Assembly: GCF_000733845.1 (NCBI RefSeq)
Contig: NZ_JPOI01000001.1
Coordinates: 558,001-622,000, forward strand
DNA length: 64,000 bases
From: Geobacillus vulcani PSS1
GTDB lineage: Bacteria; Bacillota; Bacilli; Bacillales; Anoxybacillaceae
Direction of reading: 5' to 3'
A program made the translations under genes and the position numbers. The notes beneath the pieces are model-generated. The model was not told where the DNA came from. It did not search any database and saw only the letters and a list, made by a program, of their open reading frames with translations. Below are positions 1,681 through 64,000 of this stretch, piece after piece. Numbering within the stretch: position 1 is the stretch's first letter; every line of letters begins with the position of its first letter.

Positions 1681-1727
1681 CCGTGAAAAGCAGGCGACAA
1701 CGGCCGTTTCGCGTCTATATAAAACTC

Positions 1728-4689: not shown

Positions 4690-4760
4690 TGTATACTCCC
4701 CCCATTTTTTCTAGATGATTTATTAAGATAATTTATACATTGAACGCCGGGTGATGATCG

Positions 4761-42443: not shown

Positions 42444-42875
42444 GTCTCCATTCCTCATAGGTACGATAAAAACATTAGGTGGCAAGCAGATTAAAGTTGG
42501 TCTATTGGGGTTTCAATCTCTCATAGGTACGATAAAAACGGGCGGAATTTCTCCAGCTTGGTCCGGTGGCGAAGGTTTCAATCCCTCATAGGTACGATAA
42601 AAACATCGGCACACGGCCTTTTGCCGCAATATCAATACCGGTTTCAATCCCTCATAGGTACGATAAAAACTGAGTCGTTTTTGCTGCTCTTGCAATTGAC
42701 GTATCTTGTTTCAATCCCTCATAGGTACGATAAAAACGCAATCTTCCGTTTCAATGCAGCCACTTCGCGGGCCGAGTTTCAATCCCTCATAGGTACGATA
42801 AAAACTTCTCGTATGTATCGACGAATTGGTCATCGTTAAAGACAAGTTTCAATCCCTCATAGGTACGATAAAAAC
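42444..42875 (-). CRISPR. CRISPR array 1, 7 repeats and 6 spacers
   Basis: 30-bp repeats beginning GTTTCAATCC and ending CGATAAAAAC at 42444 (3 mismatches), 42510 (1 mismatch), 42575, 42641, 42708, 42776 and 42846. Spacers are 36, 35, 36, 37, 38 and 40 bp. The degenerate repeat at the left marks the old end, so the leader is on the right and transcription is probably leftward, giving a crRNA 5' tag AUUGAAAC as in type I-B/III systems. No cas gene is near. Confidence 0.98.
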
Positions 42876-48860: not shown

Positions 48861-49304
48861 GTGAAGTATTACAGTATAGGGCAATTTGCCAAACTAATAG
48901 GGAAAACAGAGCACACATTAAGAGATTGGGATAAATCTGGTGTATTAAAACCTGCATATGTTGCGCCATCGGGGTTTAGAAGGCTGGTGAAAAACAGCTG
49001 TTTCCCCTGCTCAATGGATGAACATATGAAAAAAAGTACTGATGCTACAAAGTTTTTCTATTTGAGAAATGATGCCGGGAAGCCCCATGTTCCCTTAAAT
49101 CACCGGCCCTTTAGATATTACTCACAAGAACAGCTCAATCATTTTCTTGGTATAAAAAATAGGAAACGCGAGAGAAAAATTGTAGGCTATTGCAGAGTGT
49201 CAAGCGGTTCAAATCATCACATTATGTTGTAAATTGCAGGGGAAAAGAGCAAATAAAGCCAAGAAAATGATTCAGGAGTTGGTAAAAGATGATCAAGACT
49301 TATA
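48861..49304 (+). pseudogene. tnpA: IS607 serine recombinase tnpA, broken by a MITE and an internal deletion
   Basis: The MerR-like N-terminus (KYYSIGQFAKLIGKTEHTLRDWDKSGVLKPAYVAPSGFR) continues after the MITE with YYSQEQLNHFLGIKNRKRERKIVGYCRVSS, the serine-recombinase start. Then most of the catalytic domain is missing; in another frame GKRANKAKKMIQELVKDDQDL, the normal C-terminus, survives up to 49304. So about 100 residues are deleted. The MITE plus its duplication adds 135 bases, a multiple of 3, so the frame stays open through it. No active recombinase can be made. Confidence 0.85.
48976..49114 (+). repeat. MITE-like dispersed repeat copy R5, inside tnpA
   Basis: A 131-bp element (48980-49110) between TTAG direct repeats (48976-48979 and 49111-49114). 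Ends: AAGGCTGGTGAAAAACAGCT and AAATCACCGGCCCT. Removing it plus one TTAG restores the tnpA codons for PSGFRYYSQEQ, which proves insertion and fixes the ends and 4-bp target duplication. Confidence 0.92.
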
Positions 49305-50473
49305 AAGTTATGCTTTTGCCAAACAATAAGCAAAGAACAAAGTTATTTGAGTGTGCAGGCGTATCCCGATGGGCATACAATTGGGCATTGGCTACACAAC
49401 AAGAAAACTACAAAAATGGCGGAACGTTTTTAAACGATAATGAGTTAAGGAAAATGCTGACACAATTAAAAAAGCAAAAAGAATATGCTTGGCTTAACCA
49501 TTACTCAAATAATATAACAAAACAAGCAATTAAAGATGCCTGTCAAGCGTACAAAAACTTCTTTGAAGGCAGGACGAAGTTTCCAAAATTTAAGTCAAAA
49601 AAGAGAAGCAAACCAAGTTTTTATCAAGATACAGCAAAAATAAAAATCACAAAAACGCATGTAAAATTGGAAAAGCTGACTACTTCGAAGAAAAAGAACA
49701 AGCAAAAATTGAATGATGTTAAGTTAGCTGAAAAAGGCAGAATCCCAACAGGGAGTAATATAAAATATCTCAACCCAAGAATCACGTTTGACGGAATAAA
49801 TTGGTGGCTTACTATTGGAGTTGAAGAAGTTGAAAACAAAAACCAAAATTATACTGACGGCATAGGCATCGATTTAGGGGTGAAAGATTTAGCTGTCGTT
49901 AGCAACGGGCAGAAGTTTCGCAATATAAACAAATCAAACAAAGTGAAGAAGTTGGAGAAAAGGCTGAAACGGTTGCAACGTAAACGATCAAGGAAATATG
50001 AGAAAAATAAAATAAAAACAGAAGGAGGTGAATTCCGTTACAGAAAAACAAACAATATAAAAAAGTTGGAATTCCTTGTTCGAAAGACCTATCGAAGGCT
50101 AAAACACATCAGGCACAATTATATTCATCAAATCACTGCATCTTTGGTGAAAACCAAGCCAGAGTATGTAGTCATGGAGAGCTTAAATACTCATGGAATG
50201 CTAAAGAACAGAAAGCTATCGAAAGCCATCCAAGAACAAACATTCCATGAGTTCACGAGACAGATGGAATATAAGTGTGCTTGGAATGGGATCAAGTTGA
50301 TACTTGCCGATCGATTCTTTCCTTCGTCTAAAACTTGCAGCCATTGTGGGGCTGTAAAAGAGAAACTTTCTTTGTCAGAAAGAACGTTTGTATGTGATGA
50401 ATGTGGAAATAAAATAGACAGGGATGTGAACGCAAGTATAAACTTAAAAAAATATGGTAAGTCAATAGCCTAG
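49289..50473 (+). CDS. tnpB: TnpB-like RNA-guided nuclease (IS607 type)
   Basis: A 394-residue TnpB with all RuvC motifs: RuvC-I GIGIDLGVKDLAVV, RuvC-II VVMESLNTHGM (catalytic Glu), zinc ribbon CSHCGAVKEKLS...CDECG and RuvC-III DRDVNASINL. The N-terminal helix-turn-helix (KLFECAGVSRWAYNWALA) and basic bridge region are complete. ATG at 49289 follows TTCAGGAGTTGGTAAAAG and overlaps the end of the tnpA remnant. It could still act as an RNA-guided nuclease although its recombinase partner is dead. Confidence 0.96.
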   Translation: MIKTYKVMLLPNNKQRTKLFECAGVSRWAYNWALATQQENYKNGGTFLNDNELRKMLTQLKKQKEYAWLNHYSNNITKQAIKDACQAYKNFFEGRTKFPKFKSKKRSKPSFYQDTAKIKITKTHVKLEKLTTSKKKNKQKLNDVKLAEKGRIPTGSNIKYLNPRITFDGINWWLTIGVEEVENKNQNYTDGIGIDLGVKDLAVVSNGQKFRNINKSNKVKKLEKRLKRLQRKRSRKYEKNKIKTEGGEFRYRKTNNIKKLEFLVRKTYRRLKHIRHNYIHQITASLVKTKPEYVVMESLNTHGMLKNRKLSKAIQEQTFHEFTRQMEYKCAWNGIKLILADRFFPSSKTCSHCGAVKEKLSLSERTFVCDECGNKIDRDVNASINLKKYGKSIA

Positions 50474-50645
50474 CACGAAAAGCGGTTATTGACATGTACC
50501 CATTCGTTAGTGGGGAATTGAAGCCTTCGGAGCACCACATCCAACGAGAGTAGCTTTGGCGAAATCGGGTGCGATGAACAAGGAAAGAAACATAGGTCTT
50601 TATAAGATTTTTAACTATCTTATAAAGCCTTATAAGTTTTCTGTA
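50474..50645 (+). ncRNA. Candidate reRNA (omegaRNA) of the IS607-like element
   Basis: The non-coding stretch between tnpB and the element end holds paired segments (GAAGCCTTCGGAGC, CCAACGAGAG) and lies where TnpB guide scaffolds are normally encoded. The guide would begin at about 50646, in the 3' half of the split Rpn gene. Based on family knowledge; structure not computed. Confidence 0.45.
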
Positions 50646-50858
50646 ACGGCTGCCAAAGTCATGGAACTCATCGTTTCATACGAGCAGAAAGGCATGGAGA
50701 AAGGAATAGAGAAAGGAATAGAGAAAGGCTTGGAGAAAGGAATGGAAAAAGCGAAGCTGGATGTTGCGAAACGAATGTTGGCAAAAGGATATGATGCCGA
50801 CACGATTCATGAACTGACCGGGCTGCCGCTTGAAAAGATTGAACAATTGAAGAAATAA
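50646..50858 (+). pseudogene. Rpn-family gene, 3' part
   Basis: About 70 residues, TAAKVMELIVSYEQKG followed by four MEKGIEKG-type repeats and a C-terminal helix pair (AKRMLAKGYDADTIHELTGLPLEKIEQLKK). It continues the gene at 48108 in the original frame. In the intact homologue the same place reads KVLELIISYEQKG then a repeat-rich linker. Separated from its start by the IS607-like element. Confidence 0.88.
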
Positions 50859-50956
50859 TACGGAGACAAGAGCCTTCCTCCCTGGCATTCCATTCCGGAT
50901 TGTCGTCCTTCGATCTCTCCAAAACTTTGAGAAATCCCCCAGGGAGAAAGGCCTCT

Positions 50957-51319
50957 TTATCGCTGTTCCCATCCATTTTGCCTGACAGTCCGATCCTCTG
51001 AAAGCCCAATCCGCTCAAGCTCACGCCCCAAGCGTCCCGTAAGCATCAGCCCGTACATGTGAAAATCAGCTCGGAGCGACCAAAGCGGGTGGCCAAAGGT
51101 GGCGGGTTTGTTTCCTTCGATAAAAAAGTGGCTGAACCAAGCGAGCGTGTAGACGGCAATCGGCGCGCCAAGCAGCCACCATGCATTCCCCGTTACAGCC
51201 GCGATGATGATGAACAAAAAGACAACACTCGTTCCGACAAAATGCCACCACCGCGTCGCTCGTTTGCGGTGCTGGGTCAAATAGAACGGCCAAAATTCTT
51301 CATAGTCGCGGAATCTCAC
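50957..51319 (-). CDS. DUF962/Mpo1-like membrane protein
   Basis: A 120-residue protein with the DUF962 start RFRDYEEFWPFYLTQHRKRATRWWHFVGT, two transmembrane helices (about residues 30-47 and 50-68) and the conserved SHFFIEGNKPATFGHPLWSL. Yeast Mpo1 of this family is an Fe2+ dioxygenase acting on 2-hydroxy fatty acids, and the His residues needed for metal binding (in YLTQH, WWHF, SHFF, FGHP) are present. GTG at 51319 follows GGGGGTGAGG. A longer in-frame version runs into a gene remnant and is not credible. Confidence 0.88.
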   Translation of the reverse strand: MRFRDYEEFWPFYLTQHRKRATRWWHFVGTSVVFLFIIIAAVTGNAWWLLGAPIAVYTLAWFSHFFIEGNKPATFGHPLWSLRADFHMYGLMLTGRLGRELERIGLSEDRTVRQNGWEQR

Positions 51320-51414
51320 TTCCCTCACCCCCTTTCGCTTCCGCCGCTGCAACCCGCCGCTCGCGAATGGGCCGAGCGAGCAGCCCCCGGTCATGTACCA
51401 AAACAGCACGAACG

Positions 51415-51600
51415 ACAATCATGTCCACCATTGTCCTTTGACGAGCGACTGTTGCCAATCATCGAACTCATCGATGCCGCCCTTGACGATCGGCGCAGGC
51501 GCAGCGGGCGAATAGAAGCGGCGAACCGCTCCGTGAACGGCCGCCACGCCAACAAGGAACGTGACGATGACCAACCTTCACCCTCCATAGCGGCATCTAG
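51415..51600 (-). pseudogene. Decayed, partly deleted copy of the neighbouring membrane-protein gene
   Basis: The minus strand reads LVGVAAVHGAVRRFYS, then after a deletion DEFDDWQQSLVKGQWW and a stop. This corresponds to LLVGVVMLVKGTVRRLYS and DPFEYWQQSLIEGQWW near the N-terminus of the adjacent gene (51610-52998). It is a tandem-duplication remnant. Confidence 0.7.
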
Positions 51601-51609
51601 TACCATTGC

Positions 51610-52998
51610 TTATTGAATGTCATCCATGACACAAAATGTCTGCAAGTTGTGTTCTTGTTTTGGCACATTCAGGCGCGACACCGGTTGAGCCGTGCGCAAA
51701 TGAAAGATTTGCATTTCCCCTGCATGATCCGACTCGCTTCCTGCGGGCGGCTCCAATAGCACATACACATAGTCGCCATGAAATCGGGCTTCCCAGTACG
51801 ATGCGGGCAGTTCGTGTTTTTCGATCGGCTGGAACTGAGCGTTCAAAGCCATCCATCCCGATTTCTCCCGCTGTACGTAGCTCACCCACAGCGTGTCTCC
51901 TTGTACTTGGAGCTGATCGAATCGTGTTTCCTCCTCTCCTGTATCCCAATACGCCACTCGCCATGAACGCAAATCAATGATGGTGAGACGAGGCTTCGTG
52001 GCGATGACAAGGTGGTTGCGGAAAGCCGCCATCGATCGGGCGGAAGAAGTGAGCAACGGAATTTCTTTCACGACCTCGCCGCGTTGATCGATCACATACA
52101 ATACGCCTTGTTCCTTTTCAATCACATCGGCGAACACATAGAAATACGGCGCTACGTGCAAAACTTGAAGAACGTAAGGAGGGAACCGTTTAGAAAATAG
52201 CAATTTCCCCTCTTTTCGTACTTCGAGTTTATTCGTTTTTACATCTTGGTTGAGCGAACGAATATCCCACTCTCCCTGCAACGAGGCAAAGGAAAGAGGG
52301 CTGGAGAGCGCTTCTTGATCGGTAACAGTCCATTTGCCTGGATTCAGTCGATACACATACCTTCCCGTATAATCGGACCACAACAACAGTTCCTTTGTTG
52401 AGGAAACGGGCGAAAGGTGAGAGATTCCAACCGCTTTGAGCGTCACCACTTTGCGCACATGATGTTCGTCCGCCTCCACGATATATGACTCTCGCTCTAA
52501 CGGATGAGAATACAAAAAGAAAATACGCGCCGACGGATCTTGCGGCAAGCGGGCTTTGGACGGCTCGTACGTCCGCACTGAAGAGACAACGGAATCGTCA
52601 ATGTTCTGCACCCAATACACGATGACAGGCGCAGCTGCCGCCAGCACCACCCATATCCATCTCTGCCGCTTCCACCAAACTTGTCCTTCCTTTTGACCTC
52701 CTATGCGTTGAACAAGCCATGCCCAGTACCATACGATGTAAAGGAACAACGCAAGCGACAGCCACGCCCACCATTGTCCTTCGATAAGGGATTGTTGCCA
52801 ATACTCGAACGGATCGACACCGACCCTGGCGATCGTGTGAAAATTGTTCAGAAAAAAGAGCGGCACTGCGAGCACCGCAGCGAGCGAATACAAGCGGCGA
52901 ACCGTCCCTTTCACTAGCATCACCACACCGACGAGCAGCGTTGCGATGCATATGACGTAGTACAACATTGTCATCCATAACGGTGCACTTGGACCCAT
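51610..52998 (-). CDS. Membrane protein with large beta-rich domain, unknown function
   Basis: A 462-residue protein I do not recognise. The first ~150 residues hold four transmembrane helices (starting about residues 5, 28, 68 and 105). The remainder is a soluble beta-rich region with recurring Trp/Tyr-rich strands (VGISHLSPVSSTKELLLWSDYTGRYVYRLN; RSMAAFRNHLVIATKPRLTIIDLRSWRVAYWD), which suggests a beta-propeller outside the membrane. ATG at 52998 follows GGAAGGGGATGCAAC. A decayed partial copy lies directly downstream. No operon partner is evident. Confidence 0.8.
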   Translation of the reverse strand: MGPSAPLWMTMLYYVICIATLLVGVVMLVKGTVRRLYSLAAVLAVPLFFLNNFHTIARVGVDPFEYWQQSLIEGQWWAWLSLALFLYIVWYWAWLVQRIGGQKEGQVWWKRQRWIWVVLAAAAPVIVYWVQNIDDSVVSSVRTYEPSKARLPQDPSARIFFLYSHPLERESYIVEADEHHVRKVVTLKAVGISHLSPVSSTKELLLWSDYTGRYVYRLNPGKWTVTDQEALSSPLSFASLQGEWDIRSLNQDVKTNKLEVRKEGKLLFSKRFPPYVLQVLHVAPYFYVFADVIEKEQGVLYVIDQRGEVVKEIPLLTSSARSMAAFRNHLVIATKPRLTIIDLRSWRVAYWDTGEEETRFDQLQVQGDTLWVSYVQREKSGWMALNAQFQPIEKHELPASYWEARFHGDYVYVLLEPPAGSESDHAGEMQIFHLRTAQPVSRLNVPKQEHNLQTFCVMDDIQ

Positions 52999-53146
52999 GT
53001 TGCATCCCCTTCCAGTCATGATAGTTGGAATATTCGATGAGATGGAGACGGTTTCCTTCTTTATGGAAAGATTCCCCCCCAGTTGAAAGAATACGCATCC
53101 GCCACCAAAAACGGTGTCTGTCTATTCTCGGGTCAAAAGGTTCCTC

Positions 53147-53275
53147 CTAGGATCCCGGTGATTTACTTAGAATCCTCTATTTTCATTAATCAGGAAAATT
53201 TAGTAAAACATGCTTTTGCTTCTCGTCCAGCTTCGTCGATGTTCCAAGTATGCTCATTTTTCACTGGCCTTCTAG
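53147..53275 (-). repeat. MITE-like dispersed repeat copy R7
   Basis: A 121-bp element (53151-53271) between CTAG repeats (53147-53150 and 53272-53275). On the minus strand it starts AAGGCCAGTGAAAAATG and ends AAATCACCGGGATC. It abuts copy R6, sharing the middle CTAG. Confidence 0.75.
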
Positions 53276-53399
53276 GAGACCGGTGATTAAATCGTGCATA
53301 CCGCTTCCCGGCATCGTTTCTCAAATAGAAAAACCTTGCAACACTGCGCACATTCACTCATCGATCAAGGGAAACCGCTGTTTTTCAACAGCCTTTTAG
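53272..53399 (-). repeat. MITE-like dispersed repeat copy R6
   Basis: About 120 bp (53276-53395), minus orientation: AAGGCTGTTGAAAAACAGCG at one end and TTTAATCACCGGTCTC at the other, flanked by CTAG and TTAG. Its body shares GCAAGGTTTTTCTATTTGAG and GATGCCGGGAAGC with copy R5. Confidence 0.75.
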
Positions 53400-53494
53400 C
53401 TATATGAAGAAAATAGATGACCCGCGTTGGTTGCTAATCATCGGGAAAGTGGTTTCACGCGCCAGCCTTTCGCCTGTCGATATTTTATGTGAAT

Positions 53495-53540
53495 GAAAAC
53501 CGCCTCTTTCCCACTGATCCGATGGAAAAGAGGCGGTTTC
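53495..53540 (-). terminator. Terminator of the htrA gene
   Basis: AACCGCCTCTTT (53498-53509) pairs with AAAGAGGCGGTT (53527-53538); TTTTCATTC follows on the minus strand. Confidence 0.88.
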
Positions 53541-53543
53541 TTC

Positions 53544-54752
53544 TTACGACTGGCTGTTTTCTCTCGCCTTGAGCGTGACAGATACGGTTGTCTCAAACCC
53601 ATCACGATAAATTGTCAGTTTGATGCGATCGCCGACCGCTGTTTTCGTGTACAAATATTTGCGCAAGGCGCTGACGCTGTCGATTTTCTGGCCGTTGATC
53701 GCCGTGATGACGTCTTTCGATTTCAAGCCCGCGTCGGCCGCCGGCGAGAACGGTTCAACCGAGGTGATGGCCGCACCATATGTTACGTTGGACGGCAATT
53801 TCAGCTCATCGGCGCGCACATCATCGGACAAATCCGCGACATCGACGAGCTGGACGCCAAGATACGGGCGTTTGACTTTCCCGTCTTTCATCAGCTGTTC
53901 GACGATCGGCTTGACGTTTTCGCTCGGGATGGCAAAGCCGAGCCCTTCGACGCCTGTTTCGGCGATTTTCATGCTGTTGATGCCGATGACTTGCCCCGCG
54001 CTGTTAATGAGCGCGCCGCCGCTGTTGCCCGGGTTGATCGCCGCATCCGTCTGGATGACGTCAATCTCCCAGTCGCCCGCTGAAGTGGACACCGGCATCG
54101 TCCGTTTGCCGCTGACGATTCCTTCCGTCACCGTCCGCGACAAGTCAAGACCAAGCGGGTTGCCGATGGCCGCGACCGGCTCACCGATTTGCACGTTCGC
54201 CGAGTCGCCGAAGCTCGCCACTTTCGTTACGCCATCAGCTGGAATTTTCAAGACGGCGAGGTCCGTCAGCGCATCAGCGCCGACGATGTCCGCTTTCACT
54301 TTTTTGCCGTTCGCGAGCGCCACCTCGACTTTATTCGCTCCTTCGATGACATGGTTGTTCGTCACAATGTACGCCGTATTGCCCTCTTTTTTGAAAATCA
54401 CGCCTGAGCCTGTCCCAGCTTCGGTATCTTGCGCTTGATCGGAGAAAAAGTCGACTTGCTTCTGGATGTTGACGACGCCGACGACGGCATCGGCGACTTT
54501 GTTGATGGCGGCGATCATGTTCGTTTTCGTATTCGCCGTCGGCTGCAGCGGCAAGGCGTCGCTTTTTTGCTCAGTCGTTTGCGCCGCTTGAGTGGGGGCG
54601 GCGCCTTCTTGATTCAACCATTTCGGTGCCACATACCATGTCGCTGCGCTGCCGATCACCGCCCCAGCGACAGAAGCAGCAAGCCACGATACGAAGCGGC
54701 CGCGCCGTTTCGGCTGCGGAGTAGGGGTTGGTTCAAATGGCATCATGTCCAT
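53544..54752 (-). CDS. HtrA/DegP-like serine protease (S1C)
   Basis: A 402-residue membrane-anchored protease. One N-terminal helix (about residues 22-40) places the protease domain outside the cell. The catalytic triad is visible: His in VTNNHVIEGA, Asp in ALTDLAVLKI, Ser in NPGNSGGALI. A single PDZ domain follows (about 295-390, YLGVQLVDVADL...). It degrades or refolds misfolded exported proteins. ATG at 54752 follows AGGAGGAGATGACCG. It is near a two-component system that resembles the B. subtilis CssRS arrangement; no CssR-like site was seen just upstream of this gene. Confidence 0.95.
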   Translation of the reverse strand: MDMMPFEPTPTPQPKRRGRFVSWLAASVAGAVIGSAATWYVAPKWLNQEGAAPTQAAQTTEQKSDALPLQPTANTKTNMIAAINKVADAVVGVVNIQKQVDFFSDQAQDTEAGTGSGVIFKKEGNTAYIVTNNHVIEGANKVEVALANGKKVKADIVGADALTDLAVLKIPADGVTKVASFGDSANVQIGEPVAAIGNPLGLDLSRTVTEGIVSGKRTMPVSTSAGDWEIDVIQTDAAINPGNSGGALINSAGQVIGINSMKIAETGVEGLGFAIPSENVKPIVEQLMKDGKVKRPYLGVQLVDVADLSDDVRADELKLPSNVTYGAAITSVEPFSPAADAGLKSKDVITAINGQKIDSVSALRKYLYTKTAVGDRIKLTIYRDGFETTVSVTLKARENSQS

Positions 54753-54986
54753 CGGTCATCTCCTCCTTTATCATGAATGGTCATCCATAACCAAACATTG
54801 GACAACTTCGAGCGAATGCCGCCAAAGCATCGGAAAGGAGGATGAAACACAACGATGTCGCCTACATCCATCGGTCGTACACAAAGATCAGATGACATGT
54901 TCCGGTCATTGGCTGCTTTCTCCCTACCATAGTTGAACGGCATGTCTCGTTCCTTCTTTCCAAAGGGGCATCCCACGATGTTCCGA

Positions 54987-55409
54987 TTAGATTGTCTCCG
55001 GCGCAACAGTCGTCCGCTTTTGTTTCCGCTTGCGTCCCGCGGCGAGCGTGCGAATTGACAAGCAAATGCCCGTCGCCGTTAAGACGATCATCGCCACCGC
55101 GGCGAGATCAACCGCCCAACGAATGTCGAGCGAGCCAATGCGCCCTTCATGCAGCTGGCGGATGAACGTTCCAAGCGACGTTCCTCTTTCTTCAGCGCGC
55201 GGAACGATCGGGGCAGTGGACGAGCCTGCGCCAGACGCTTGTTCCACTCCGAACGCGCCGCCTGCTTGCATGGCACGATGCATTTCGCCGCGTTCGGCCT
55301 GGCCGATGAGCCACGGCTCGGATAGAAACAGGCCTGTCACAGCTTCAACGAGCAAAAAGACGGAACTGATCAATCCAATCCAAAGATGCAAATTTCTCAT
55401 TTTCCTCAT
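54987..55409 (-). CDS. PepSY-associated transmembrane protein
   Basis: A 140-residue protein with two transmembrane helices (about residues 5-27 and 95-117) separated by an outside loop. The LHLWIGLISSVFLLVEAVTGLFL start and the LHEGRIGSLDIRWAVDLAAVAMIVLTATGICLSI end are typical of PepSY-TM proteins, which often lie next to envelope-sensing two-component systems. ATG at 55409 follows GGAGGAGCATGACG; an ATG six bases earlier is closer to the site. Divergent from the response regulator, with a shared control region. Confidence 0.85.
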   Translation of the reverse strand: MRKMRNLHLWIGLISSVFLLVEAVTGLFLSEPWLIGQAERGEMHRAMQAGGAFGVEQASGAGSSTAPIVPRAEERGTSLGTFIRQLHEGRIGSLDIRWAVDLAAVAMIVLTATGICLSIRTLAAGRKRKQKRTTVAPETI

Positions 55410-55457
55410 CGTCATGCTCCTCCTTTTCCTCTTCGCCCATCATCATACCCAAGCAAA

Positions 55458-55530
55458 GTGAAAAAACGGTGAAAAATCCTCGTCGGATCGGCTTTCCTTT
55501 GCCTTTTCAATTTTCACCTTTTTTTCACGT
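55458..55530. promoter_or_regulatory. Mirror-image direct-repeat boxes between PepSY and two-component genes
   Basis: GTGAAA occurs at 55458 and 55469, and TTTCAC at 55512 and 55523. Each pair is spaced 11 bases, the pattern bound by OmpR-type regulators, and the two pairs point in opposite directions. The right pair overlaps the -35 region of the TATGAT box at about 55539. Likely binding sites for autoregulation by the adjacent regulator. Confidence 0.6.
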
Positions 55531-55576
55531 AGATTTGCTATGATAAAAGCAAGGATGGAAAACAGGAGGAACGTCC

Positions 55577-56248
55577 ATGAAAGTGTTGCTGGCGGAAGAC
55601 GATCTCCATTTAGGGGAACTGATCGTTCATTTGTTGAAGAAAAAAGGCATTGACCATATCGATTGGGTGCAGGAAGGGGAAGACGCGTACGACTACGCGA
55701 TGGCGGAATTTTACGATGTCGTCGTGCTCGATTGGATGCTGCCGAACGGCGATGGGGTGGAGATTTGCCGCCGCTTGCGGCAAAACGGCTACACAGGCGC
55801 CATTTTGATGTTGACCGCGAAAGACGCGGTGCAAGACCGCGTCACCGGGCTTGAATCCGGAGCGGATGACTATTTGGTCAAGCCGTTTGAAATCGATGAG
55901 CTTGTCGCTCGCTTAAAAGCGCTCGCCCGGCGCACGTTCGTCCCGCTCCAAGAGGAAACCGTGACGTTTCACGGCTTCACATTGAACCGGACAAGCCATA
56001 CGCTGCATCGCGGTGACGAGGAAATTTTCCTCACCCCGCGCGAGTTTCAGCTCCTTGATCTTCTCGTCCAAAATCAAGGCCACGTCGTACCGCGCGAGAC
56101 GATATTGGACCGCGTCTGGGGCTGGGACGCCGACGTCTCAATGAAAACGATCGACGCGACGATCAAATTGCTCCGTAAAAAATTGAAGGACGACGTCATC
56201 CAAACGGTGCGCGGGGTGGGATATAAAATTGATCAAACAATGGAATGA
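55577..56248 (+). CDS. OmpR-family response regulator
   Basis: A 223-residue regulator. The receiver has the acidic pair EDD (residues 7-9), the phosphorylated Asp in VVLDWMLPNGDG, Thr in MLTAKD and Lys in YLVKPF. The C-terminal winged helix (about 130-220, LTPREFQLLDLLVQNQGHVVPRETILDRVWG...VRGVGYKI) is of the OmpR type. ATG at 55577 follows AACAGGAGGAACGTCC. Its 3' end overlaps the kinase gene, so they form one operon. Confidence 0.96.
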   Translation: MKVLLAEDDLHLGELIVHLLKKKGIDHIDWVQEGEDAYDYAMAEFYDVVVLDWMLPNGDGVEICRRLRQNGYTGAILMLTAKDAVQDRVTGLESGADDYLVKPFEIDELVARLKALARRTFVPLQEETVTFHGFTLNRTSHTLHRGDEEIFLTPREFQLLDLLVQNQGHVVPRETILDRVWGWDADVSMKTIDATIKLLRKKLKDDVIQTVRGVGYKIDQTME

Positions 56249-57602
56249 ATGGCGCAACTGGCTGCGCCGTTTAGGAAGCGCGGACTTGTTCCGCCGCACC
56301 CATTGGCGGCTGACGGCGCTTTACAGCGGCATCTTTACTTTATTTCTCGCTTTGTTTATCGTCATCGCCGCCGCTTTGTTTTATTGGATCACGACATCCG
56401 ATCAAGAGCGGCGCATCGTTCGCCTCGCTGAACAAGAGGCCAACACGATGGAACAGTTTTTGTTAAAGCAAAGCGATTTTGACTTGTTCGATGACGAAAG
56501 TCTCGTATTGCTCAGCGAAGACCAACTCTTTTTTTACGTAATCGCTCCTAATGGCGATCTGCTTGCCGGGGATGAAGTCCACCCGCGCCTGCGCCCGTAC
56601 TTTTTGCACGCCTTGTCTCGTCTAAATATGAACGCACGTGCTCCAGTCTATTTGACCGTATCATTACCCGAGCATATGCCGGGCCTGGCCCGCGACGCCG
56701 CCCGTGACTGGCGGGTGCTCGCCGCCGCCCGTCCGCTCGTCATTCATGGCAATGTCGTCGGCATCTTGTATATCGGGATGGATGTGACCTCGTTTTTCGG
56801 GGTGTTCCATTGGCTGCTTATTGTGCTGATCGGTCTTGCCGTTCTCTTTCTCGCCGTCGGCGTGGCGCTCAGTTACTTCATGTCGAAGCGGGCGCTCGTG
56901 CCGATTGAAGAAGCGTACGAGCGGCAGCGCCAGTTTGTCGCCGACGCCTCCCATGAATTGCGCACACCGCTGAGCGTCGTCTTTTCATCTGTTGAGGCGC
57001 TCACAATGGAAGAAGACGTGATGAAAAACGAGTTTGCCCGCCGTCTGCTTGACCGCCTTCGCGAGGAGTTGAAGCGGATCACAAAGCTGATGAACGATCT
57101 CTTGACGCTCGCCCGCGCCGATGCGAGACACGCCGCGTTGGAACTGGCGAAACAGACGTTTGACTTTCGCCCGCACGCCGAGCGCACGTTTCAGCTCGTG
57201 GCGGAACTGGCGGCGAAAAAACAGCTCACGATGCACTTTCACGCTCCGGAACAAGCGGTCGTGACGGCCGACCCGGATAAACTGACGCAGCTGCTGTACA
57301 TTTTGCTTGATAACGCGATCAAATACACCCCAGAAGGCGGAGAAGTGACATTGTCGATCCGCACCGAGCCGAAGCAGTTCATCCTTTCCGTCAAAGACAC
57401 CGGCATCGGCATCCCACCGGAAGACATCGGCCGCATTTTCGACCGCTTTTACCGCGTCGACAAAGCGCGCTCGCGCCAACAAGGCGGTCACGGCCTAGGG
57501 CTATCGATCGCCAAATGGATCGTTGATGCCCATGGCGGCACGATCCATGTCCACAGCCAGCTCGGGCAAGGGACGGAGTTTATCGTACGTCTGCCTGCCT
57601 GA
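56229..57602 (+). CDS. Sensor histidine kinase
   Basis: A 457-residue membrane kinase. Two transmembrane helices (about residues 28-52 and 184-208) enclose a ~130-residue outside sensor domain. Then comes the HisKA box DASHELRTPLSVV and a complete ATPase domain (N box DNAIKYTPEGGE, G1 DTGIGIPPED, F box FDRFYRVDKARS, G2 GGHGLGLSIAKWI). The TTG start at 56229 lies inside the regulator gene behind GGGTGGGATATAAAA. The signal is unknown; neighbours (PepSY, HtrA, PspA-like) suggest envelope stress. Confidence 0.95.
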   Translation: MIKQWNEWRNWLRRLGSADLFRRTHWRLTALYSGIFTLFLALFIVIAAALFYWITTSDQERRIVRLAEQEANTMEQFLLKQSDFDLFDDESLVLLSEDQLFFYVIAPNGDLLAGDEVHPRLRPYFLHALSRLNMNARAPVYLTVSLPEHMPGLARDAARDWRVLAAARPLVIHGNVVGILYIGMDVTSFFGVFHWLLIVLIGLAVLFLAVGVALSYFMSKRALVPIEEAYERQRQFVADASHELRTPLSVVFSSVEALTMEEDVMKNEFARRLLDRLREELKRITKLMNDLLTLARADARHAALELAKQTFDFRPHAERTFQLVAELAAKKQLTMHFHAPEQAVVTADPDKLTQLLYILLDNAIKYTPEGGEVTLSIRTEPKQFILSVKDTGIGIPPEDIGRIFDRFYRVDKARSRQQGGHGLGLSIAKWIVDAHGGTIHVHSQLGQGTEFIVRLPA

Positions 57603-57613
57603 GCACATCTTCG

Positions 57614-57650
57614 AAAAGGGCGCCTCCGCAAAACAACGAGGCGCCCTTTT
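57614..57650 (+). terminator. Terminator of the two-component operon
   Basis: AAAAGGGCGCCTC (57614-57626) pairs with GAGGCGCCCTTTT (57638-57650). Confidence 0.88.
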
Positions 57651-57659
57651 GACCGTTGT

Positions 57660-57799
57660 CTAGAAGGCTGGGGAAAAACGGCTGATTCTCTTAATCAATG
57701 GGAGAATGAGCGAAAAGCAGAACCGATGCAACAAGGGTTTTTCTAATTGAGAAATAACATTGTAAAGCCGTATCCACGACTAAATCACCATCCTCCTAG
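57660..57799 (+). repeat. MITE-like dispersed repeat copy R8
   Basis: A 132-bp element (57664-57795) between CTAG direct repeats (57660-57663 and 57796-57799). Left end AAGGCTGGGGAAAAACGGCT, right end TAAATCACCATCCTC. Nearly identical body to copy R2 at 31977-32108. Confidence 0.88.
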
Positions 57800-57962
57800 G
57801 CGCTTTTCCTGCGTTTATCCCCTCCATCTCTTGTGCTTCGCCTGCGGGCAACCGGCTTTTCTCTTTTTTGAAATCTGTGTCCTCTTTTCACCTTATTTTC
57901 TCTTTCCCTCGCTACAATGCAAACTGTAGGCCGGTCCACCATCAAAAAAGGAGGTGAGAAGA

Positions 57963-58484
57963 TTGAAGAAAACTCGAGCAGTCGTTTGGCTCGCGCTTGT
58001 GGCGCTCGTTGGGGTCAGCTTGCTTCATGGGCTCACGCCGCATGAAGCGATGGCGCACGGACGCCCCGGGGTTCCGTTTGACGGCGTGCATGGCGGCGTT
58101 TGGCACCACCGTCAGGCATTCGGCATGGGGCCGCGCGCAGGCTGGATGCTTCCGCGCTTGTTCCTGTGGATCATCCCCTTGCTGCTTATCGGCGTTGGCG
58201 CCGTATGGCTCGCAGTGAAGCGGTCAAAGCGCTGGATCGGTTGGGCGCTCGTCACCTTAGGGATCGCCGCCTTGTTGCCGAAATGGGTGCTGATTGCACT
58301 GGCACTCGTGGCCGTCTACACGTTCGGACGACGTCAAGGACGAAAACCAGCAGCTGCTGAAGCATGGTCTCCAGCACCGCCGTCCGTTTCTGTCGATTGG
58401 CTGGACCAATGGGAAAAAACGATACAAAAGGAGGCGCTGACGAATGGGCATTTTTCGTCGGATCAAGACGATCGTTCTCGCTGA
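57963..58484 (+). CDS. Membrane protein upstream of a PspA-like gene
   Basis: A 173-residue protein with a signal-type helix (residues ~5-27), a Gly/His-rich outside loop (HGRPGVPFDGVHGGVWHHRQAFGMG), two further helices (about 65-82 and 88-115) and a cytoplasmic tail. The gene starts with TTG behind AAAGGAGGTGAGAAGA. It overlaps the PspA-like gene by about 40 bases, so the two are co-translated; it may be its membrane partner, similar in role to LiaI/PspC-type proteins. I do not recognise a named family. Confidence 0.8.
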   Translation: MKKTRAVVWLALVALVGVSLLHGLTPHEAMAHGRPGVPFDGVHGGVWHHRQAFGMGPRAGWMLPRLFLWIIPLLLIGVGAVWLAVKRSKRWIGWALVTLGIAALLPKWVLIALALVAVYTFGRRQGRKPAAAEAWSPAPPSVSVDWLDQWEKTIQKEALTNGHFSSDQDDRSR

Positions 58485-59097
58485 AGTGAATGAACAAATC
58501 GATCAATGGGAAGACCCGATCGCCATGACAAAACAATATTTGCGTGAACTCGAGCAGCAGCTCGAACGAGGGCGCCAAGCGCTCGCCCAGCAATGGGTCG
58601 CTGAGCGGCGCTATGAGACACTGATCGCCCAAGCGGAAGCGACGGTGGAAAAGCGGAACCGCCAAGCGAAACTGGCGCTCGAACGCAACGAAGAAGCGGT
58701 CGCCAAGTTGGCGCTGCGCGACAAGCTGCTGCACGAGAAAAAGCGGGAAGCCTATAAGCAACAATACAACGCGATCAAAGCGAAAACCGCTGAGGTGGCC
58801 CGCCGTCTTCAGGAGCTGCGCGAACGATATGACGAGCTCGCCGCCAAGCAGCTTGAGCTCACCGCTCGCGTCAACGCCGCCCAGGCGCTCAAGCAAATCG
58901 ACACGGCGCTCGCTTCGTTTTCCGCTGATGAAGCGCTGCGCGGCTTCGCCCGCATGGAAGAGCGCGTCATCGCCTTAGAAGCCGAAGCGGCCGCCGCCCG
59001 TTTCGGAGCGAACGTTGCGTTGTCCCCTGTGCCGTTTGAGGAAGAAGTGGAACGTGAGCTGGCAAAATGGAAAGAAGCCCAAGCGACGAACGCGTAA
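58444..59097 (+). CDS. PspA/IM30 (LiaH-like) membrane stress protein
   Basis: A 217-residue all-helical coiled-coil protein of the PspA/LiaH/IM30 family. The start MGIFRRIKTIVLAEVNEQIDQWEDPIAMTKQYLRELEQQL is the family's N-terminal helix and first coiled coil. It associates with the cytoplasmic membrane during envelope stress. It follows the small membrane protein with overlap and has its own GGAGG site and ATG at 58444. The nearby two-component system and HtrA make an envelope-stress cluster, though no regulatory link was read from sequence. Confidence 0.92.
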   Translation: MGIFRRIKTIVLAEVNEQIDQWEDPIAMTKQYLRELEQQLERGRQALAQQWVAERRYETLIAQAEATVEKRNRQAKLALERNEEAVAKLALRDKLLHEKKREAYKQQYNAIKAKTAEVARRLQELRERYDELAAKQLELTARVNAAQALKQIDTALASFSADEALRGFARMEERVIALEAEAAAARFGANVALSPVPFEEEVERELAKWKEAQATNA

Positions 59098-59124
59098 TCC
59101 CCCTCCCCCCTTTGACATAGATGA

Positions 59125-59163
59125 CCCCCTTGCCCGCTCGGCAAGGGGGATTGATTTGTTTGA
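59125..59163 (+). terminator. Terminator of the PspA-like operon
   Basis: CCCCCTTGCC (59125-59134) pairs with GGCAAGGGGG (59140-59149), followed by ATTGATTTGTTTG. Confidence 0.85.
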
Positions 59164-59255
59164 TCCCCTGTCACGCGTAAGCAAAATCATTCCCTCTTCT
59201 TTTCCATTGTGCTAAAATCATTAGAGAAACGAAATAATCCAGGAGATGACCCCGC

Positions 59256-60494
59256 ATGGACTGGAAGCGAAGCGTCCGCATTTTATGGCTGTGCAATTTT
59301 ATGGTGTCGGCCGGAATGACGATGGTCATTCCCTTTTTGTCGCTTTTCTTATGGCAAATGGGTGTCACTGAGCATCATGCCTTAAGCATGTGGACCGGGC
59401 TTGTCTTTTCCGCCACCTTCTTATCGGCAGCCATCATGGCGCCGATCTGGGGAATGTTTGCGGATCGATATGGTCAACGCGCCAATTTGATTCGCGCCGG
59501 AATCGGCATGGGTTTGATCACCGCCTGCATGGCGTTGGCCACTTCGCCCACGGCGCTGCTTGTGCTTCGGTTTCTTGTCGGCTTTTTCTCCGGCTTCATC
59601 ACCGTCTCGTTTTCCTATTTGGCCCGCGTCGTTCCGAAAGACCATAGCGGTGAGGCGCTCGGAACGCTGCAAACCGGCAGCATCGCCGGAAACATTATCG
59701 GGCCGCTCATCGGCGGCGCTTTGTCCGACTTGTTCGGCTTCCGCCCGGTGTTTTTAGTGACCGGGCTTTGCATTTTGCTTACCCTCTTGCCCGTCATCTT
59801 TTGGCTCGAAAAAGACCCAGTCGTGCCACAGACGAAAGAAAACAAGGCGAGCTTCAAAGACGTGTTCGAACACCGGCCGCTCATCATCTTGTTTGTCGCT
59901 ACGTTTCTCGTGCAAATCGCCGTTCTCGGCGTCAACTCGATGATGACGATTTTTGTCCAATCGTTGGTCGGCCACACTAGCAATCTCGCCTTTTTATCCG
60001 GCCTAGCCTCATCGATCACCGGCATCGCCACGATCATCGGCGCGCCGTATTTAGGGAAGCTCGGCGACCGGATCGGGCAAGAGAAAACATTGCCGATTTT
60101 GCTTGTTCTCTCCGGCTTGTTCGCCTTGCCGCAAGTCTGGACAGACCACATTTACGCCTTGTACGTATGGCGCTTCTTACAAGGGCTGGTCGTCGGCGGC
60201 GTATGGCCTGCCCTTCAGGCGCTCATCAACGCGCAAAGCCCGCGCCGCATTCAAGGGCGGGTGTTCGGCGTCACCGCCAGCAGCCGCTTCCTCGGCAACT
60301 TGACCGGCCCGACGGCCGCGGGCGCCATCGCCGGCCTGTTTTCCATCGCTTCGATTTTCGCCTTGTCCGGTCTCTTGTTGATCGCCACCGGCGCCTTGGT
60401 CGGCTATGCCCACCGCCCTGCAACCAACACATGGCGTGAAGGGATGAAAGAAAAACTCGCCGCGTGGACGCATCGCCTTCATAGTCGGCACTAA
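59256..60494 (+). CDS. MFS multidrug efflux transporter (MdtG-like)
   Basis: A 412-residue, 12-helix MFS antiporter. The intracellular loop motif GMFADRYGQRANLIRAGIGMG after helix 2 and the antiporter motif GSIAGNIIGPLIGGALSDLFGFR in helix 5 are typical of the DHA1/MdtG group of drug pumps. A ribosome site AGGAGATGACCCC precedes the ATG. No dedicated regulator is adjacent. Substrate unknown. Confidence 0.9.
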   Translation: MDWKRSVRILWLCNFMVSAGMTMVIPFLSLFLWQMGVTEHHALSMWTGLVFSATFLSAAIMAPIWGMFADRYGQRANLIRAGIGMGLITACMALATSPTALLVLRFLVGFFSGFITVSFSYLARVVPKDHSGEALGTLQTGSIAGNIIGPLIGGALSDLFGFRPVFLVTGLCILLTLLPVIFWLEKDPVVPQTKENKASFKDVFEHRPLIILFVATFLVQIAVLGVNSMMTIFVQSLVGHTSNLAFLSGLASSITGIATIIGAPYLGKLGDRIGQEKTLPILLVLSGLFALPQVWTDHIYALYVWRFLQGLVVGGVWPALQALINAQSPRRIQGRVFGVTASSRFLGNLTGPTAAGAIAGLFSIASIFALSGLLLIATGALVGYAHRPATNTWREGMKEKLAAWTHRLHSRH

Positions 60495-60589
60495 GCGACT
60501 TGGCGGCATCCAACTGAGATGGGCGCCTCGCTCGGCGGGAGCGCTATATTGACACGAGGCGCTCTGGCGGCATTGAACATGAAAGAAGG

Positions 60590-60618
60590 TATCCGCAAAA
60601 AGTGGGACACCTTCCCTT
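60590..60618 (-). terminator. Terminator of the S58 peptidase gene
   Basis: AAGGTATCC (60595-60603 region) pairs with GGACACCTT (60605-60613) around the loop GCAAAAAGTG; CTTTC follows on the minus strand. Confidence 0.55.
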
Positions 60619-60654
60619 CATCACCTGTCATCGTTTCATCCAACGGTTACCCTT

Positions 60655-61710
60655 CTATTCCCCCGCCCATTTCATCCGCTGAAGCAGCGAATACGGAATC
60701 GCCTCTCCAACGCGCCCGTTCCGCCCAGTCGTCGTTTCCGCCATCGTCAATGAGTTCCAAATCGCTTCCTCTGTCGCCTCAACAGCCGCTTGAAACAGCT
60801 CGTTCATGAGCGGCGCATCATCGCGGACAAGCGGCGGCAGCGCCTGATGCCCGGAATCGGCAACATGCGGAATCGTGTATGCCGTGGAAAAGGCAATGAC
60901 GATATCGCCGCTGCCGTGATGAACATGACTCCCCGTCCGCGCCAGCCCCACCGCCGCCCGCTTCGCCAACCGCTTCAATTGCCGCGCATCAAGCGGCGCA
61001 TTGGTCGCCACGATCATCATAATCGACCCAGGCGGCACGTCCCGCTCATCAAACGACGGCGGCACATACGGCACAAACCGCAGCTCTTCGCGCCGCCCAA
61101 AATTGCTCACGACAAGCGTCCCGACCGTATACATCCCGCCCGCGATCCGCGATGAACTGCCGACTCCTCCTTTCCAACCGAAGCACATCATGCCCGTCCC
61201 CGCGCCAACCGCTCCTTCTTCCATATCCACCCGCGCTTCGGCAATCGCCTGTTTCGCATGCGCCTTCGTCACCGCCAGCGCCCGCGCCGCGTTCAAATAG
61301 CTGTCATTGCACTCCCCGACCACGATGTTGACAGACCCGGCCGTGTCGCCAATCTCCGGCGTCATCTCCATCATATACTCAAGCGTCCCTTGCCAGACAG
61401 CGCCGACACTGAACGTACTCGTCAGCATAATCGGCGACTCGATCGTCCCCAGCTCCTCGACTTGCATGAGCCCCACCGTTTTCCCGAACCCGTTCAGGAC
61501 AAAGCACGCCGCCGGCACCTTCTCTAAAAACCAATTCCCCCCATGCGGCAGCACCGCCGTCACCCCAGTGCGGACCACCGTCCGTTCATCCCGCTCTTCA
61601 CGAATCGTCACATGCCCGACCCGAACGCCGGACACATCCGTAATTTGATTCCGCTTCCCTGTCGGAAGCGTGCCGATCGAAAACCCGAGATTGCGAAGTT
61701 TTTGGCGCAT
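60655..61710 (-). CDS. P1/DmpA-family (S58) aminopeptidase
   Basis: A 351-residue N-terminal-nucleophile hydrolase of the DmpA/BapA type. The family start (GTLPTGKRNQITDVSGVRVGHVTI) is present, and the autocleavage site lies at the Gly-Ser of WKGGVGSSSRIA, generating the nucleophilic Ser. These enzymes release D- or beta-amino acids or beta-peptides. ATG at 61710 follows GGAGGCTTCCCATCG; the frame is open for 39 more codons upstream without homology. No signal peptide, so it acts in the cytoplasm. Monocistronic. Confidence 0.93.
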   Translation of the reverse strand: MRQKLRNLGFSIGTLPTGKRNQITDVSGVRVGHVTIREERDERTVVRTGVTAVLPHGGNWFLEKVPAACFVLNGFGKTVGLMQVEELGTIESPIMLTSTFSVGAVWQGTLEYMMEMTPEIGDTAGSVNIVVGECNDSYLNAARALAVTKAHAKQAIAEARVDMEEGAVGAGTGMMCFGWKGGVGSSSRIAGGMYTVGTLVVSNFGRREELRFVPYVPPSFDERDVPPGSIMMIVATNAPLDARQLKRLAKRAAVGLARTGSHVHHGSGDIVIAFSTAYTIPHVADSGHQALPPLVRDDAPLMNELFQAAVEATEEAIWNSLTMAETTTGRNGRVGEAIPYSLLQRMKWAGE

Positions 61711-61798
61711 CGATGGGAAGCCTCCTGTCATAAATCCATTCCTCTTTCCATCATAACTTAAAGAAAGCATGAAAGTATAGAAAATATAGAAAAATAAC

Positions 61799-61942
61799 GG
61801 TTCATCACCACAACGTGTACTTGACAAGTGAGACTTCTTTTCGTGTCACCATGTATAAAAATCGTTGATTTACTGTTTTTTCTTTCCAGAAGGAAGTATG
61901 GCATGTTTTGAAACAGTCAAGTACAACTTTTGGTGAAGAGCC
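61799..61942. mobile_element. ISL3-like MITE, 144 bp
   Basis: Terminal inverted repeats of 27 bases with 22 matches: GGTTCATCACCAC.. at the left and GGCTCTTCACCAA.. on the other strand at the right, both ending TGTACTTGAC. Near-perfect 8-bp direct repeats AAAATAAC (61791-61798) and AAAGTAAC (61943-61950) flank it, the duplication length of ISL3-family elements. No gene inside. Confidence 0.8.
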
Positions 61943-61984
61943 AAAGTAACTTTCATTTTCCAAATATGTTCATTATTATAGTAA

Positions 61985-62106
61985 TAGGATCATACCACAG
62001 CAATGATCTCAGGGTTACTATGATAAGGGCTTTCTGCTTGGGCAGAATGACCCGCGGCGTTGGGGATCGCCTATCGCCCTCTTTTGGCGGGCATTCCCCA
62101 CTCTTA
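61985..62106 (+). ncRNA. Type II-C tracrRNA (GeoCas9 type), orphan
   Basis: The anti-repeat ATACCACAGCAATGATCTC (from 61992) continues AGGGTTACTATGATAAGGGC, then the nexus and hairpins TTTCTGC/GCAGAA, GACCCGCGGCGTTGGGGATC and CGCCCTCTTTTGGCGGGC, ending CATTCCCCACTCTT. From memory this is nearly the same as the tracrRNA of Geobacillus Cas9. It is followed at once by a terminator and then by a cas9 stub. No type II repeat was found in the window. Confidence 0.9.
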
Positions 62107-62114
62107 GGCGAACG

Positions 62115-62147
62115 AAGACCTTAGCGGAAAACGCTAAGGTCTTTTTT
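62115..62147 (+). terminator. Terminator of the tracrRNA
   Basis: AAGACCTTAGCG (62115-62126) pairs with CGCTAAGGTCTT (62132-62143), followed by TTTT. Confidence 0.92.
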
Positions 62148-62179
62148 ACTACATTATTCCGTTATGGGAGGGGATCGAA

Positions 62180-62347
62180 GTAAGATACAAAATCGGCCTT
62201 GATATCGGTATTACATCTGTCGGCTGGGCAGTCATTAATCTGGATCTTCCTCGTATCGAAGATTTGGGCGTCCGCATCTTTGACAGAGCAGAAAAAAATC
62301 GCGACTCACTGGTGCGATTTTCACCGAACAAAAAAGGCGGTGGATGA
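62180..62347 (+). pseudogene. cas9: cas9 5' stub (type II-C), start codon lost
   Basis: Translation from 62180 gives RYKIGLDIGITSVGWAV then INLDLPRIEDLGVRIFDRAE, the RuvC-I start of Geobacillus type II-C Cas9 (which begins MRYKIGLDIGITSVGWAV). The initiator is GTA instead of ATG, though the ribosome site GGGAGGGG is kept. After about 38 codons, near 62293, homology stops; a short unrelated tail runs to TGA at 62345 and includes two terminator-like hairpins (62298-62322, and AAGGCGG/CCGCCTT near 62334-62356). So over 1,000 codons and probably cas1, cas2 and the array were deleted. Confidence 0.9.
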
Positions 62348-62416
62348 CCGCCTTCTTCTTTTCCTCTTACTCATTCAACAGGAAACACTAGGGTGAGATC
62401 GATCACCCTTTTCCTC

Positions 62417-63325
62417 TTACTCGCTCAGCAAATTTCGAACCTCTTCTTCAGAAAGATCCACCAACCGGGCTATCTCGGCGGCCGTCATCCCTTTTTGCGC
62501 CATCGTCTGAATAAGCCGCTTCATTCCCTGTTTCATGCCTTGTTCCATTCCTTGCTTCATCCCTTGCTCAAGGCCGCGTTTTACCCCTTCTTCCAACCCT
62601 TCTCTCTTCCCTTTTTGCTCGTAGGAGATGATCAGCTCCAGCACTTTCTCTCGTTCTTTCGTTTCCATCGCCTTCACCTCGCTTTGCAGCTGTTGTTCCT
62701 CTTCCTCCGTCAACTTCACGTACGTCTCAAAAAACCCAAGCAGCAGCCGCTGCCTCGCCTCATCGAGCTCCAACCGCACCAACATGCGCAAAAACTCTTT
62801 TTTCAGCTCCACCTTCTCTCTTTCAGTATACCCCTTTTGACTGAGCAACGCAGCTGCAACCGGGTTGTCGTGCCGGATGTACTCCCGCCACTGCTTCTTC
62901 CGCAGCGCCACCGGAAAAAAGCGAAACTGCAGCACTTCGCCAAACGGAAATTCCATCGAAAACACAGACGGTTCCTCGCGGAGGGAATCATAGTGGAAGA
63001 CGGCGATCGGAACGATGCGGGTCCGGTAGGTTTCATACAAGCGGCTGAAATAGAGGAACATGCGCTCGGCAAACGACGGCTGGACATACCCTTGCGTTTC
63101 CACGTGCACGATGATCAGCCCGTCTTCGCCTTTCAACTTCGTCTCGACCAGCAAATCAACGCGGTACTTTTCGCCGGCCGTCACATCGGTAAACAGCTCT
63201 TCGGATAAAAAGGACAGATGGTGGAAATCGATATGCTCGTGCATGTCGGGGAAAAAGAGGAGCAGAAACTCTTCGAAAAACGTGCGGATCAGCTCTTTGA
63301 ACAGCCGATCATGGTCAATCGCCAT
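62417..63325 (-). CDS. Rpn-family recombination-promoting nuclease (PD-(D/E)XK transposase-like)
   Basis: A 302-residue intact protein. The PD-(D/E)XK core has the acidic residues in YRVDLLVETKLKGED and GLIIVHVETQGYVQ. A Glu-rich linker follows, then a low-complexity run (EGLEEGVKRGLEQGMKQGMEQGMKQGMKR) and a short helical C-terminus with MTAAEIARLVDLSEEEV. Related Rpn proteins promote RecA-independent recombination and occur in many copies. ATG at 63325 follows GGTGAGGTGATTGA. It stands between a dead type II-C locus and CRISPR array 2; a split copy is at 48108-50858 and a remnant beside array 1. Confidence 0.92.
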   Translation of the reverse strand: MAIDHDRLFKELIRTFFEEFLLLFFPDMHEHIDFHHLSFLSEELFTDVTAGEKYRVDLLVETKLKGEDGLIIVHVETQGYVQPSFAERMFLYFSRLYETYRTRIVPIAVFHYDSLREEPSVFSMEFPFGEVLQFRFFPVALRKKQWREYIRHDNPVAAALLSQKGYTEREKVELKKEFLRMLVRLELDEARQRLLLGFFETYVKLTEEEEQQLQSEVKAMETKEREKVLELIISYEQKGKREGLEEGVKRGLEQGMKQGMEQGMKQGMKRLIQTMAQKGMTAAEIARLVDLSEEEVRNLLSE

Positions 63326-63393
63326 TCAATCACCTCACCTTGACGGTCTCTCTTTTTCTATTCGCCGTCCTCAAGGCGGCATCCTGCTCACAG

Positions 63394-63626
63394 TGAGAAA
63401 TTCGTCATAGGTACGATAAAAACCGAATACCCCGATTTGAAACGAAAAATTTTCCGCAAAAGTTTCAATCCCTCATAGGTACGATAAAAACTTTTTTTCC
63501 GTCTGTCAAATATTGAAGCAATTCATCGTTTCAATCCCTCATAGGTACGATAAAAACCATGAAACACATTGATGTATTCTTGATTACAAAATATGGGTTT
63601 CAATCCCTCATAGGTACGATAAAAAC
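63394..63626 (-). CRISPR. CRISPR array 2, 4 repeats and 3 spacers
   Basis: Same 30-bp repeat as array 1, at 63394 (degenerate, about 7 mismatches in its first 11 bases), 63462, 63528 and 63597. Spacers are 38, 36 and 39 bp. The degenerate repeat is again on the left, next to the Rpn-family gene, and the leader on the right. cas genes, if present, must lie beyond the window. Confidence 0.97.
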
Positions 63627-63800
63627 CCCAAAAAGCGCTGTTATATCAAACTTTTTCATCCTAGGTTACCTTCAGAATAACACGGTCAAAAAATTCTGTC
63701 AATCATACTCACCCGTGATAGCTGTAGAAGCCAAGTGACAAAAACCAATGTCGTCGACCCCCTGGGGTTTTTGCACGATTGGAGGTCGACGACAAATGAA
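63627..63800 (-). promoter_or_regulatory. CRISPR leader of array 2
   Basis: Closely similar to the array 1 leader over about 170 bases, including AGAATAACACGG, ATTCTGTCAATCAT, TGTCGTCGACCCCCT and the 11-bp inverted repeat TGTCGTCGACC/GGTCGACGACA. After about 63800 similarity fades; no gene seen to the window end. Confidence 0.85.
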
Positions 63801-64000
63801 GACTGCTTCCTGGCGTTTGACTTGCCTTGTTTGCCGATTGCTGTTTGCCTAAGCGAGGACAAACGCTCGTCATGCGGTGAATAAGACCCGGGCGCCGCCT
63901 GCTCATCCATCGCGGGCAAGACGAATACAAACATTGGAATGCCAACACTTGCATGAACGGGGGCGAGTGCTAACTTTTTATGTCTCGAAGCAGTCGGCCG

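Follow-up and report, generated by a model that had tools for sequence, protein, structure and literature searches.

A complete tracrRNA gene stands beside the first 38 codons of a cas9 gene in Geobacillus vulcani PSS1, and the two are very probably the remains of a type II-C CRISPR-Cas9 locus that lost the rest of its sequence in one large and fairly recent deletion; they look like an ordinary relic rather than a repurposed RNA. The window analysed here (the whole stretch of 64,000 nucleotides) is part of a chromosome assembled as one contig of 3.389 Mb. Within it, the tracrRNA gene (61984-62147, + strand) is followed by the cas9 remnant (62180-62293, + strand), which tblastn and alignment identify as residues 1-38 of the Cas9 protein of Geobacillus icigianus G1w1 at 100% identity. 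Its start codon is GTA, at a position where five of the seven aligned Geobacillus relatives have GTG and the other two ATG. The remnant ends in a run of seven A residues (62292-62298) that forms the deletion junction, with cas9 to its left and, to its right, sequence from beyond the II-C array. The initial annotation had described a complete tracrRNA with anti-repeat, nexus, hairpins and terminator, a cas9 gene cut to a 38-codon start with a GTA initiation codon, and a nearby array whose repeat is unrelated to the anti-repeat, and the comparisons below bear out all of these descriptions.

The deletion becomes visible when the locus is set against that of G. icigianus, the closest relative found here, which carries the tracrRNA, cas9, cas1, cas2 and the array. 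Its cas9 encodes 1087 amino acids from a GTG start codon and its array consists of seven II-C repeats, one of which is interrupted by an insert. This insert (L035, approximately 2690-3187) is about 0.5 kb long, has inverted ends and repeated CAGG, and resembles a small mobile element. Both genomes are 96-97% identical over the left flank, the tracrRNA and the start of cas9; the alignment ends at cas9 codon 38 and resumes, at 93% identity, 5.36 kb further on, at a point some 30 bases past the final repeat. The missing stretch corresponds to cas9, cas1, cas2 and all seven II-C repeats, the interrupted one included, and its size of approximately 5.36 kb applies to G. icigianus coordinates, with array length being variable and the insert being G. 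icigianus's own. The reduction of cas9 to its start is due to this deletion, which removed cas1, cas2 and the array as well; by this comparison, a single event would have taken everything from codon 39 of cas9 to approximately 30 bases past the last repeat. The flanks tell the same story in a second genome of the genus (G005), in which both flanks of the window surround an intact II-C locus. The right flank common with the intact locus includes a gene for an Rpn-family recombination-promoting nuclease/putative transposase (62417-63325, - strand; TIGR01784 over its cut-off), which lies beyond the array in G. icigianus too. To the left of the tracrRNA, G. icigianus lacks the peptidase-gene stretch, which is an independent loss.

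In G. icigianus, the missing stretch is bounded by GCAG-AAAA-CCC in cas9 and by CAT-AAAAA-TCAC at its other end; the junction in G. vulcani PSS1 reads GCAG-AAAAAAA-TCGC. The two ends were likely joined within these short runs of A, through slippage or illegitimate recombination, and the longer run in G. vulcani PSS1 could reflect either slippage or a longer ancestral run. Loss of the cas9 start codon would be a separate mutation. The tracrRNA, located outside the deleted stretch, would have been left partnerless and would now be drifting. Some transcription of it may persist; with neither a Cas9 nor a II-C crRNA found, it would have nothing to guide.

The tracrRNA itself matches a covariance model (R1) over its full length (model positions 1-165) with 195.5 bits and no non-standard pair flagged, in a model built from the window sequence together with nine related sequences. 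Because the window sequence is itself a member of this model, the anti-repeat of Geobacillus thermodenitrificans T12 serves as an independent check: as given in the accessible part of its report, it matches 61990-62023 on the - strand at 33 of 34 positions, with one mismatch, and none of 100 shuffled sequences matched. The same excerpt places the T12 anti-repeat element 164 bp upstream of cas9 (PMC5765199), and the distance from the anti-repeat to the cas9 stub in the window is 156 bases. In Geobacillus stearothermophilus, a putative tracrRNA upstream of cas9 was shown by small-RNA reads, according to the available text (PMC5681539). The window anti-repeat is complementary to the II-C repeat, and its duplex with that of G. 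icigianus has a predicted energy of -48.8 kcal/mol at 37 °C, against -48.3 kcal/mol for G. icigianus's own tracrRNA. It is followed by the nexus/hairpin region and by a rho-independent terminator (62115-62147), which is intact, and in the computed folds the energies of repeat pairing, hairpin and terminator are approximately equal to those of G. icigianus. The window tracrRNA is, as modelled, structurally sound and not visibly broken, which counts against decay. A possible breakage of the hairpin by a change at 62080 that is private to G. vulcani PSS1 was considered and rejected, as the two RNAs differ by at most 0.2 kcal/mol at 37, 55 and 60 °C and an equally stable alternative fold is present. 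In the part of the window scanned with Rfam (50000-64000), no family reached its gathering level for the tracrRNA, and the one overlapping match (62087-62160, - strand) scored 20.1 bits against a gathering threshold of 100. Elsewhere in the window, a RAGATH-18 RNA (Rfam; 50524-50585, + strand) scores 65.9 bits against a gathering threshold of 44.9 and lies 50 bases past the stop codon of a TnpB gene (49289-50473), which is where the guide RNA of a TnpB is expected to lie. Another TnpB, whose start is nearly identical, occurs at L095:3940. Taken as a whole, the locus resembles the known Geobacillus type II-C loci (GeoCas9, ThermoCas9/GtCas9) in its tracrRNA upstream of cas9, in an anti-repeat that agrees with that of T12 at 33 of 34 positions, in its cas9 start and in its neighbours, which are those of G. 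icigianus and G005. It differs from them in having lost cas9 from codon 39 on, cas1, cas2, the array and the start codon.

Upstream of the anti-repeat, the seven Geobacillus relatives have TTG followed by any three bases, 17 bases and then TATTAT, immediately before the anti-repeat. On the basis of this alignment, the probable tracrRNA promoter of G. vulcani PSS1 is placed at 61951-61979 (+ strand), with TTTCAT as -35 box (61951-61956), a 17-nt spacer and TATTAT as -10 box (61974-61979). The -10 sequence is present in the seven Geobacillus relatives and absent from the loci of Bu78 and Thermolongibacillus. The -35 position reads TTG in all nine aligned loci (these two and the seven Geobacillus relatives) and TTT in G. 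vulcani PSS1 alone; the more distant Filibacter locus, which does not align there, is left out of this comparison. A consensus promoter scan called the proposed promoter in neither G. vulcani PSS1 nor G. icigianus. Directly upstream of it lies a MITE-like repeat (61799-61946, no strand assigned; ends approximate) with imperfect terminal inverted repeats, which is not homologous to the sequence preceding the tracrRNA in the aligned relatives. Many copies of this element are present in the own and sister genomes, at up to 93% identity, and dozens occur in Geobacillus genomes.

The rest of the genome offers the tracrRNA no visible partner. An intact cas9 elsewhere, which the initial annotation had considered, was not found when the whole genome was searched with the G. 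icigianus Cas9 protein and TIGR01865; these searches returned the stub and one HNH-only match. The latter (contig C1, 1481859-1482062) was rejected as a second Cas9, since it belongs to a protein of 184 amino acids and all of its matches fall in the HNH part. Repeats complementary to the anti-repeat were likewise missing: across the whole genome, the exact degenerate pattern of the II-C repeat matches the anti-repeat only, and allowing up to three mismatches adds one site between two genes, which carries three mismatches and looks like chance (approximately 0.2 expected by hand calculation). Judging by their translations, we take these two genes to encode a purine-permease-like and a GMP-synthase-like protein. 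Cas1 was found at no place in the genome, as compared with two places each in G. icigianus and G005, and neither cas1 nor cas2 lies within the 19-kb neighbourhood of the stub. For Cas3, G. vulcani PSS1 gave no match above the cut-off and six weaker ones (the best with 44.2 bits against 102.45), and G. icigianus and G005 gave one above the cut-off each, plus weak ones similar to those of G. vulcani PSS1; these sub-cut-off matches are probably ordinary helicases. The array near the stub (63462-63626, + strand; Rfam CRISPR-DR2) is short, has three exact copies of a different repeat and is no partner of the tracrRNA. This other repeat occurs in 23 exact copies in the genome, distributed over three arrays (window 42575-42875, window 63462-63626 and contig C1 2454036-2455068), and may be of type I-B. 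Next to the array at 2.45 Mb and the one at window position 42575, no open frame appears cas-like by eye in its first 60 residues, and the three arrays are probably orphan arrays. Among the types sought, much of the CRISPR machinery of G. vulcani PSS1 appears to be gone.

In the genus (14 genomes, one per species, that of G. vulcani PSS1 included), the tracrRNA and the cas9 start were found in eight genomes, and Cas9 matches in the same eight. Five of these (G. icigianus, G002, G004, G005 and G006) encode a full-length Cas9 in a single open frame. Two sister species show other partial losses of the II-C locus. In one (G010, L091), the Cas9 match ends at about residue 937-941 and no cas1 or cas2 is found in the 6.3 kb downstream; in the other (G011, L092), cas9 is split near residue 863, cas1 is mostly missing and cas2 is present at 97%. 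At the family level, the tracrRNA was found in 10 of 41 genomes, and exactly these 10 also have Cas9 or the stub, in a search that used Infernal's stricter filters with 70 candidates scored per genome and could thus lose weak matches. With these filters, no second cas9-less tracrRNA was found among the 41 genomes, so that there is no sign of such RNAs being kept as a class. A pattern scan of named genome contigs returned 10 stretches, two of which belong to G. icigianus and Geobacillus jurassicus. Three further loci in the named records have the RNA word and cas9 in the same stretch. Those of Bu78 and Thermolongibacillus give full-length matches to the RNA model, of which both sequences are members, followed by cas9; that of Filibacter matches the model weakly (25.2 bits) and has its cas9, cas1 and cas2 on the far side of a transposase-like gene. 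In Filibacter tadaridae (L057), this gene of 504 amino acids (5103-6617, assigned by eye) separates the tracrRNA-like stretch (6826-6967) from cas9 (1698-4943). The other five stretches were rejected as chance occurrences, with no RNA match at E<=1 and no cas9, cas1 or cas2 match at E<=0.001.

Why a partnerless RNA should be so well preserved is the point on which readings of this locus part. Selection could have kept the tracrRNA for a different function, either regulatory or in support of a Cas9 brought in by plasmids or phages. Its completeness, from anti-repeat and nexus to hairpins and terminator, speaks for this, as does the fact that other Geobacillus species encode a Cas9 that could use such a tracrRNA. 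However, the changes that arose after the divergence from G. icigianus, with six other species used for polarisation, argue otherwise. The G. vulcani PSS1 lineage has changed at 1 of 34 positions in the promoter, 4 of 163 in the tracrRNA, none of 32 in the leader and 1 of 114 in the stub, the last being the start codon; the G. icigianus lineage shows 1, 1, 0 and 1 changes in the same regions (19 rows at 62293, 18 scored as derived in G. vulcani PSS1 and one undecided, were left out, being artefacts of end gaps where the window sequence had been trimmed). The neighbouring MFS gene has 14 changes per lineage in 1239 positions, with 12 (G. vulcani PSS1) and 11 (G. icigianus) at its 413 third positions, and 15 undecided changes, nine of them at third positions. 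The tracrRNA change rate is thus 2.5% versus 2.9% at decided third positions of the MFS gene, both based on small numbers. Because the functionless stub is approximately as well preserved as the tracrRNA, preservation is best read as recency. The opposite idea, relaxed constraint on the tracrRNA, was also tried and rejected, since the private changes over 338 columns (six in G. vulcani PSS1, three in G. icigianus and 0 to 15 in six others) give no clear excess. All six private changes of G. vulcani PSS1 fall on columns that are invariant in the other seven, which would happen by chance with P of approximately 0.27, and one of them hits the G of the probable -35 box. This alteration, seen in G. 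vulcani PSS1 alone among the aligned loci, also speaks against retention, as do the missing Cas9 and II-C repeat, with the chance-like site as the sole other near-match, and the co-occurrence of tracrRNA and Cas9 or stub in the same 10 genomes of the family. Nothing found supports retention for another use, which we consider very unlikely. The initial annotation had weighed such a use, or a Cas9 encoded elsewhere, against a recent deletion with the RNA not yet decayed, and it is the latter that agrees with an intact locus in G. icigianus and with deletion ends that can be placed, while the former lacks support.

The deletion is read from the assembly, and cas9 could in principle be intact in the organism, the gap being a collapse of the assembly. 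This is highly improbable, as the chromosome is a single contig, the start codon is a second and independent lesion, Cas1 and the II-C repeats are likewise missing from the whole assembly, and all that both junction sides have in common in G. icigianus is an A-run of 4-5 bases. That a short peptide with a role is made from the stub, by way of another start codon, is scarcely conceivable. Its frame is indeed open up to a stop ending at 62347, with codons after 62293 that are not cas9. However, with GTA the original site no longer offers a start codon, the start listed at 62199 (TTG) is in another frame, and the 55-codon frame has no Pfam match at E<=0.001.

A recent deletion in a type II-C locus remains the preferred reading, and degraded Cas9 systems are known from other bacteria. 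The accessible text of one survey counts at least 8 of 21 Cas9 systems in Mollicutes as degraded, and describes in Spiroplasma syrphidicola a locus with an array and a putative tracrRNA and no identified cas genes (PMC6882279). Insofar as that text describes them, these are, as here, incomplete loci that persist; unlike them, the locus in the window has lost its array too and retains just the tracrRNA and 38 codons of cas9. An orphan tracrRNA, or a cas9-less tracrRNA in Geobacillus, was not found in the titles and abstract openings among the matches listed in a literature search that had most subscription journals outside its scope.

In all, G. vulcani PSS1 neatly illustrates the way in which a CRISPR-Cas9 locus may die, by one deletion and a start-codon change that leave its outermost element, the tracrRNA, in place. 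Finding a tracrRNA with a covariance model is no proof of a Cas9 system, and how well a sequence is preserved next to a dead effector has to be judged against a neutral standard, here the stub and the neighbouring gene. If selection did keep RNAs of this kind, a Cas9-independent role of the tracrRNA would best be sought in a strain such as this one.
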